Below, piece by piece: positions 32,032 to 33,873 of a stretch of 64,000 bases of DNA (positions are counted from its first letter, which is position 1; every line of letters begins with the position of its first letter). A program made the translations under genes and the position numbers. Source of the DNA: Bacteroidia bacterium (lineage in GTDB: Bacteria > Bacteroidota > Bacteroidia > AKYH767-A > OLB10); contig JAEUTH010000042.1 of NCBI GenBank assembly GCA_016788165.1, positions 62,001 to 126,000 of the forward strand, read 5' to 3'. The notes beneath the pieces were generated by a model that saw only the letters and a program-made list of their open reading frames with translations, made no database searches and was not told the origin of the DNA.

Positions 32032-32089
32032 GTGCTAAACCTGGTGGTATGTTTTAATATTGATGCATCTTACACTAAATAACTTGCCA

Positions 32090-32785
32090 ATGGAAAATTA
32101 CGGTATAAAATCATGGGCCGAAGAAGACAGGCCACGCGAAAAATTAATTACAAAAGGAAGCAGGGCCTTGTCCGACACTGAATTGTTAGCCATTTTTATC
32201 CGTACCGGAACACAAAAAAAAACGGCCATTGATGTAAGCCGCGAATTATTACAAGCCGCTCAAAACAATTTAAATATTTTGGGTAAAATGAGTGTGCAGC
32301 AAATGATAAAGCTAAACATTAACGGCTTAGGAGTGGTAAAAGCCACCACGATAGTAGCTGCATTGGAATTGGGGCGCAGACGCAGAGAAGTAGCCGAAAA
32401 TATTACCCATAAAAAAATAATTACCAGTAAAGATGCCTATCATGCACTGATAACAGACCTGGAGTTTTTGCAAGTTGAAGAGTTTTGGATATTACTGCTC
32501 GACAGAAGCAATCAGATTATAAAAAAAATAAACATCAGCAAAGGCGGTATAACAGGCACCGTTGCTGATACTAAAATAATTTTTAAACACGCTATTGAGA
32601 ATAGTGCCAGCGGTATAATTCTTTGTCACAACCACCCCAGCGGTAATGTGCAGCCCAGTCAGGCCGATCGTGATTTAACCAAAAACATTAAAGCCGGTGG
32701 CATACACTTAGAAATAGCCGTTTTAGACCACATAATTATTGCCGGCAGCAATTATCTGAGTTTTGCAGACGAAGGCTACCTTTAA
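32090..32785 (+). CDS. radC: RadC-family JAMM-domain protein
   Basis: From ATG 32090 the protein is 231 residues, starting in the usual family manner (MENYGIKSWAEEDRPREKL). It has a helix-hairpin-helix region (about 45-95) and a JAMM/MPN+ metal-binding motif with HNHPSGNVQPSQAD, where two His and an Asp bind zinc. Despite the name, no role in DNA repair is established for RadC; family members may be metalloproteases or nucleases. Upstream in-frame starts at 32060 (TTG) and 32063 (ATG) are possible but not family-like. A kinase-like gene follows after 11 bases, probably in one operon. Confidence 0.92.
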   Translation: MENYGIKSWAEEDRPREKLITKGSRALSDTELLAIFIRTGTQKKTAIDVSRELLQAAQNNLNILGKMSVQQMIKLNINGLGVVKATTIVAALELGRRRREVAENITHKKIITSKDAYHALITDLEFLQVEEFWILLLDRSNQIIKKINISKGGITGTVADTKIIFKHAIENSASGIILCHNHPSGNVQPSQADRDLTKNIKAGGIHLEIAVLDHIIIAGSNYLSFADEGYL

Positions 32786-32796
32786 TTTCTTCCACC

Positions 32797-33873
32797 ATGA
32801 CAGCTACCAACGATACTATTTCGCGCAAAAAGCCCATATATCCTATAAGCCAACCGTTACGTAAGTTTTTAAAACATTATGGCCGCGAAGTAAAAATTAA
32901 TGCCGTATACTCAGATATGCTTCGCTATAACGGTGGCATTCCTTTATATGATGTACATGGAAAAGATACACTATGGCTTACGGTTTTATATCCACAAAGT
33001 GAAGCAACACAACTGCATTTGGCCCTGCTCGAAGTATATGCATTACTTAAAACCGGTGGCGAGTTAACCGACCATCTATCTGTACAGCGTATTGACTTTT
33101 GCACCTTTGGAAACTCAAACCCATTCAGGGTTCGCATAGTAAACAACTATAACGACAACTTCGATTATTTCTACGTAAAACAAGCCGATGCAAGCCGCAT
33201 TTATGGATTGGAGTTAGAGCATATTTTATCGCCCAATCGCATTAGTTATTTAGTATGTGATACTACTTTAATAGAAGAACATATTGCAGGCATACCGGGC
33301 GACATGTTTATTAAAAACCAGTTATCAGAAAAGGGTTTTAATGAAATACGGTTGGCCAAAGAGTTTGTAAAGTTTAACGAGCGTTGCTTTTTACGTTTGT
33401 TAGGCGATATGCGCTCCTATAACTATGTGGTAGATGTAACGCCCGATTTTGAAGAAACCCACTACCGTATTCGCGCAATTGATTTTGACCAGCAAAGTTA
33501 TGAGGGCCGCAAAAAAATTTATATGCCGCAGTTTTTTAAAGAAAACTTAGCCATCGTAAACCTATGCATCAAACACATTAATGCCGAAACACTACACCAA
33601 TATCAGTTAGAGGAACAAACCTTAATGGCCAGGCGCATTAAATCGGCAAAACACATGATACACGATTTATTAAACTGTATGATGCATGATACCATAAGCG
33701 ATGAAAGCCGGGTTTCGCAACTGCGTCAAGAGTTATATGAACATTATAATAACCCTGTTTTTTTAAACTGTAAAAACATGGGTGCTTTGGTACGTGCCAG
33801 CTTACGCGAAATGATTAAACGCAACAGCCAGCATTTTAAAAAAATGGCTGCCAAACGTGTAAAAGATTATTAA
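32797..33873 (+). CDS. Orphan protein with aminoglycoside-kinase-like motifs
   Basis: I do not recognise this 358-residue protein as a named family. It has no signal peptide or membrane helix. Several stretches line up with the order of an APH-type kinase fold: FDYFYVKQADASRIYGLELEH with Lys128 and Glu139/Glu141, a hinge-like TLIEEHIAGIPGD (157-169), a catalytic-loop-like LLGDMRSYNYVV (201-212) with Asp204 and Asn209, and IRAIDFDQQ (225-233) with Asp229. The C-terminal 120 residues are helical and basic. Together this suggests a phosphotransferase fold; that is inference. It probably shares the radC operon and overlaps the convergent gene by 4 bases. Confidence 0.75.
   Translation: MTATNDTISRKKPIYPISQPLRKFLKHYGREVKINAVYSDMLRYNGGIPLYDVHGKDTLWLTVLYPQSEATQLHLALLEVYALLKTGGELTDHLSVQRIDFCTFGNSNPFRVRIVNNYNDNFDYFYVKQADASRIYGLELEHILSPNRISYLVCDTTLIEEHIAGIPGDMFIKNQLSEKGFNEIRLAKEFVKFNERCFLRLLGDMRSYNYVVDVTPDFEETHYRIRAIDFDQQSYEGRKKIYMPQFFKENLAIVNLCIKHINAETLHQYQLEEQTLMARRIKSAKHMIHDLLNCMMHDTISDESRVSQLRQELYEHYNNPVFLNCKNMGALVRASLREMIKRNSQHFKKMAAKRVKDY

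Follow-up and report, generated by a model that had tools for sequence, protein, structure and literature searches.

The window, a 64,000-nt stretch of the genome of a Bacteroidia bacterium, carries at 32797-33873 an open reading frame (ORF) for a protein of 358 amino acids. Intact relatives with 41-67% identity are found across Bacteroidota, which argues that the ORF is a real gene. An earlier reading of the letters alone (the sequence-only reading) had described the ORF, its product length, and a set of kinase-like motifs, all of which we reproduced exactly. Its statement that the protein lacks a membrane helix was borne out by a best 19-residue Kyte-Doolittle mean of 0.88. The locus is organized as follows.

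32060-32785, + strand: radC, 11 bp upstream of the kinase-like gene; adjacent to it in the window's genome only
32797-33873, + strand: gene for the protein with the predicted protein-kinase-like (PKL) fold (ORF; family of 153 members; model pLDDT 89.5, pTM 0.87)
32797-33057, + strand: N-terminal extension, residues 1-87, with helices 19-27, 38-41, and 67-86 and hairpin 46-64 in the model
33076-33144, + strand: beta1-loop-beta2, residues 94-116 (model strands 94-102 and 110-116), with the nucleotide-loop signature
33178-33180, + strand: Lys128 in beta3 (strand 121-129), K in 153/153; probable ATP-phosphate lysine, equivalent to K72 of PKA
33190-33228, + strand: alpha-C-like helix 132-144 of the model with Glu139 and Glu141, putative salt-bridge partner of Lys128
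33265-33300, + strand: hinge-like segment T157-L-I-E-E-H-I-A-G-I-P-G168 (strand 157-161), which aligns to the bacterial Pkinase hinge
33397-33423, + strand: putative catalytic loop L201-L-G-D204-M-R/H-S/A-x-N209; LGDM[RH]xxN in 153/153, aligned with HCDIKPAN of Pkinase
33478-33495, + strand: putative metal-binding motif I228-D229-F-D-Q-Q233, from conservation and alignment with IDLG of Pkinase
33538-33870, + strand: C-terminal region, residues 248-357, all-helical in the model

Distribution and genomic context

Of the 98 genomes sampled from the window's class, 71 carry the family, as do 28 of the 297 sampled from other classes of Bacteroidota; the count was made by hand and takes in one broken remnant. 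This remnant (L151, G341:C1:3158142-3158407) has in-frame stops, and its genome, which is 7 Mb in size and complete in other respects, yielded no intact copy. Absence from 27 of the 98 genomes of its own class, together with this remnant, indicates that the gene is dispensable. The named loci belong to Cytophagales, Chitinophagales, Saprospirales, Sphingobacteriales, and Flavobacteriales, and the best 80 loci in a scan of the collection were all from Bacteroidota or unlabelled. There is a single copy per genome with rare exceptions; one genome (G184) has two, a normal one and a strongly diverged one (L150, G184:C3; 41% identity) on a long branch, with the catalytic motifs kept. In the gene tree, the sequences from other classes formed one clade and the window's family another, a pattern that fits largely vertical descent accompanied by losses.

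No relatives were found on the plasmids, phages, or viral contigs searched, and searches for a defence, phage, plasmid, or viral origin each found nothing. No fused domains were seen in the family. A candidate fusion in one genome (G323, a 645-aa open frame) was rejected, as the extra upstream stretch is an arginine-rich read-through with no domain.

radC ends at 32785, and no terminator-like site was found between it and the kinase-like gene, so that a shared transcript, as proposed in the sequence-only reading, is plausible in the window's genome. The linkage itself did not hold elsewhere: radC was beside the family gene in no other genome examined, and a radC partnership was rejected, since none of the other family-bearing loci has radC nearby. 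In the window's own family, an O-methyltransferase gene precedes the family gene (L031:4352-4993 and L002-L007); radC takes its place in the window, which makes a local rearrangement likely. No neighbour was common across lineages, and a search for an operon partner returned lineage-specific genes only, such as DUF3817 in Cyclobacteriaceae and a TroA-like receptor in Chitinophagaceae.

Among local links, that to bshA (TIGR03999, E 2e-173), which we take to encode the first enzyme of bacillithiol synthesis, is the most suggestive: within the other-class clade, it lies directly upstream on the same strand at six loci (L137, L139, L140, L143, L147, L159). With mechanically called ORFs, the gaps range from -192 to 87 bp, and the value of -192 depends on which start is chosen. 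These six loci represent one ancestral arrangement. BshC was present in 384 of 395 genomes, and a co-occurrence test for bacillithiol is therefore powerless. For both reasons, the link to bshA stays a lead. In five genomes of the same clade (L137, L140, L143, L144, L148), a gene for a glyoxalase-II/MBL-fold hydrolase faces the family gene, converging on its 3' end.

Conservation of the putative catalytic residues

The order of the motifs alone is weak evidence for a kinase, because the loose pattern K..E..DxxxxN..D still arose in 16.5% of cases when the protein was shuffled. It is conservation that lifts the pattern beyond chance, and we assessed it over 153 relatives, which share 41-67% identity with the window protein and include the clade from other Bacteroidota classes. 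Lys128, Asp204, Asn209, and Asp229, the residues on which the sequence-only reading was built, were identical in all of them, and the free variation that it had named as counter-evidence was not seen. The key residues of the PKL superfamily are K72, the catalytic D166, N171, and the metal D184 (PMC1821047); K128, D204, N209, and D229 are conserved in that order. Glu139 was kept in 151 (98.7%) and Glu141 in 152 (99.3%) of the 153 sequences. Fully invariant positions numbered 34, among them also P146, E160, G203, M205, F230, D231, and Q232, and conservation of at least 98.5% was reached by just 15.6% of residues.

The nucleotide-loop signature C102-x-F/Y-G/A-N106-S/T-x-P109-F/Y-R111 has C102, N106, P109, and R111 invariant, and G105, at the G-loop position, is kept in 92%. 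P146 stands at the place of P104, and E139/E141 at that of E91. In the hinge-like segment E160, H162, G165, and P167 are invariant; IDFDQ is present in 152 of the 153 relatives; and in the C-terminal region Q268 is invariant, with Y269, E272, and E273 in 152. Two residues before the catalytic Asp, at the place of the APH/ePK His, all 153 sequences have Leu202.

These invariant residues might also serve AMPylation or nucleotide sensing. The protein would then have a PKL fold without phosphorylation, acting as a SelO-like AMPylator or as an ATP-binding pseudokinase or regulator, a reading suggested by the unusual hairpin of the nucleotide loop (CxFGNSxPFR) and by DFD in place of DFG; the superfamily tolerates shifts of this kind (PMC1821047). 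We consider it rather unlikely. Pseudokinases usually lose some catalytic positions, whereas here every ATP, metal, and catalytic position is conserved.

Predicted structure

An AlphaFold2 model of the whole protein, built on an alignment of 81 sequences, was two-lobed and confident (pLDDT 89.5, pTM 0.87). The model runs through three strands, the third (121-129) ending with K128, then helix 132-144 carrying E139 and E141, two strands leading into the hinge (151-161), and a long helix (183-200). Next come the catalytic loop at 201-209, a hairpin at 210-227, and then D229. Its secondary-structure elements follow one another as they do in a PKL domain.

In a Foldseek search with the model, the PDB and viral matches listed were almost all kinases, including the top PDB matches, as expected of a bilobal kinase fold. 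E-values were modest (best 2e-5), with TM scores of 0.2-0.45 and large rmsd; CtkA ranked 47th (E 7e-4). APH, choline kinase, and most other small-molecule kinases were absent among the top Foldseek chains listed, which are filled by ePK and PI3K, so that a family missing from such a list is not thereby ruled out. On structural re-alignment with VIA-align, all 50 matches listed were PI3K/PI4K/PIKK proteins, with Z of 11.4-13.0 over 245-286 residues; they comprise VPS34, PI4KIIIbeta, ATM/Tel1, p110gamma, and SMG1, with VPS34 the best (Z 13.0). The match to VPS34 begins at residue 18-19, inside the N-terminal extension. To check whether this ranking stemmed from the extensions at the two ends of the protein, we predicted residues 87-320 separately (pLDDT 86.0, pTM 0.79). 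VPS34 again came first (Z 10.2 over 208 residues at 3.9 A), and the best matches of the protein-kinase type were to the JAK2 pseudokinase (Z 8.2). VPS34/PI4K/PIKK proteins thus head the structural matches of both the whole model and the core. The prediction returned the kinase-type fold that the sequence-only reading had anticipated and not an unrelated one. These models suggest that the protein almost certainly has a protein-kinase-like fold; their support is strong for the PKL fold and moderate for an arrangement like that of PI3K.

Sequence and profile comparisons with known kinases

No credible match to a sequence family was found in Pfam, NCBIfam, PADLOC, PHROG, or PDB, and no kinase family matched significantly at the sequence level. 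Weak matches to ANAPC4, RimP, hemerythrin, and PhinosDhcerSyn in Pfam/NCBIfam were dismissed as chance, being below the cut-off and scattered over members. We set the family profile against three kinds of kinase-like protein drawn from related genomes (APH, HipA, and Pkinase), with 19 unrelated families of neighbour genes as controls. Pkinase gave the highest alignment score (33.4, against 12.3-28.1 for the 19 controls), in a register that pairs TLIEEHIAG with the hinge, GDMRSYN with HCDIKPAN, and IDFDQQ with IDLG. The hhalign probability was 18.7% for Pkinase, below significance, and 0.8% for APH; HipA compared with Pkinase likewise failed to reach significance. APH and HipA scored inside the control range, yet their catalytic Asp and Asn also lined up with those of the family. 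Sub-significant similarity is usual between PKL families. PI3K is described as having no sequence similarity outside the key motifs (PMC1821047).

The bacterial Pkinase (PF00069) of the same genomes is thus the best partner in profile alignment, sharing the hinge, DxxxxN, and ID[FL] in register, but the family is set apart from it by a score below significance, the lack of a PF00069 match and of the HRD/HxD His, and IDFD in place of DFG. In the window's genome, a Pkinase domain is encoded at C43:24826-25563 inside a 1774-aa open frame, and a second Pkinase gene lies on C23.

The sequence-only reading had proposed an APH-type fold. Its kinase part stands on the invariance of the motifs, the predicted fold, and the in-register profile alignment; the APH label gave way to the lack of a PF01636 match, to Leu202, and to PI3K ranking first among structures. 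That the protein is an aminoglycoside or antibiotic phosphotransferase, or another member of the APH/choline kinase cluster, is very improbable. It shares with these small stand-alone enzymes the D-x4-N spacing and the acidic residue after IDF, and it aligns weakly in register with APH proteins from the same genomes; its loop, however, is not HxDxxxxN, with Leu for the His of HxD (HGD in that cluster) in 153/153, and the family, in contrast to mobile resistance genes, is inherited mostly vertically and had no copies on the plasmids searched.

A toxin-antitoxin role, with the protein as a toxin kinase of the HipA type, has still less to commend it. HipA is likewise a PKL kinase, and HipA/CtkA (PF07804) resembles the family in fold and in the alignment of the catalytic Asp and Asn. 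However, PF07804 matched neither the window protein nor anything else in the window's genome, and NxDxHxxN was found in 0/153 sequences. No small HipB-like partner gene is common to the family loci, and the single copy lies off mobile elements.

Relation to PI3K/PI4K

The predicted architecture is nearest to the PI3K/PI4K/PIKK branch (VPS34, PI4KIIIbeta, ATM; PF00454), not APH. The resemblance extends over 245-286 residues of the model, including the N-terminal helix and hairpin, and to a hydrophobic residue replacing the His of HxD, a D-x-[H/R]-x-x-N loop, and the IDF motif. On the other hand, identity is 7-13%, the window protein has Met, not Arg, after the catalytic Asp and IDFD, not IDFG, and it is a stand-alone bacterial protein of 358 aa. 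PF00454 had no match in it at E<=10 and none in the genomes of 61 relatives. The catalytic-loop motif of PI3/PI4 kinases is DRHxxN (PMC3823935); it was found in 0/153 sequences, where the loop is GDM[RH]xxN.

VPS34 and PI4KB, as the best structural matches, speak for a genuine bacterial PI3/PI4 kinase with inositol lipids as its substrate. We asked whether the hosts make such lipids, counting overlaps by hand among 98 carriers without the broken copy in G341. myo-Inositol-phosphate synthase was present in 16 of the 98 carriers, the same as background (59/395), and lacking in 82, so that most hosts are without inositol synthesis; a relative of phosphoinositol dihydroceramide synthase was present in just six, and the window's genome has neither. 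With no association with inositol genes among carriers, an inositol-lipid substrate was rejected. This evidence is indirect, concerning host synthesis of inositol only, and uptake of inositol by the host is possible. Phosphoinositides are thus unlikely as a general substrate, and as a general function phosphoinositide kinase activity is largely refuted, with next to no chance left to it. A distinction must be made between how the protein would work, as a PI3K-shaped kinase, and the group that it falls into, a PKL family without a name.

Discussion

We propose, with a probability of about 0.78, that the gene encodes a member of an undescribed, single-copy, cytosolic family of the PKL superfamily with a PI3K-like predicted architecture, which is probably an active kinase. 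A literature search found no description of such a kinase-like family, and the suggestion in the sequence-only reading of an undescribed kinase- or phosphotransferase-like family in Bacteroidota is supported by the invariant residues, the predicted fold, and the in-register profile alignment. It is a new family of a known superfamily, unusual in its PI3K-like predicted architecture.

We propose catalysis, metal binding, and a substrate class on the basis of the fold and motif conservation computed here. ATP-Mg would sit between the beta-rich N-lobe (residues about 94-161) and the helical C-lobe, with its phosphates positioned by Lys128, which may be held by Glu139 or Glu141. Asn209 and Asp229 would bind the metal, Asp204, as the catalytic Asp, would activate the hydroxyl of the acceptor, and phosphate would pass to that acceptor. 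Deep, mostly vertical inheritance, one copy, no fusions seen, and no conserved partner gene fit a housekeeping kinase of small molecules, lipids, or proteins better than a role in defence, toxicity, or resistance. More tentatively, the family may comprise compact stand-alone bacterial kinases built on a PI3K/PI4K-type architecture, largely vertical in Bacteroidota, with a non-inositol substrate, possibly in the metabolism of bacillithiol (a low-molecular-weight thiol) or lipids.

The family is found in roughly one-quarter of the sampled Bacteroidota genomes, and in about 70% of those of its own class, and it is unnamed, unmodelled, and unannotated in Pfam, NCBIfam, and PDB. If active, it carries out a phosphorylation that has so far escaped notice in the physiology of this major phylum. 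A PI3K-like shape in hosts without phosphoinositides would bear on the origin of that eukaryotic kinase architecture, and if the non-inositol PI3K-type reading is true, the PI3K-like fold would have in this family a bacterial branch whose chemistry is its own.
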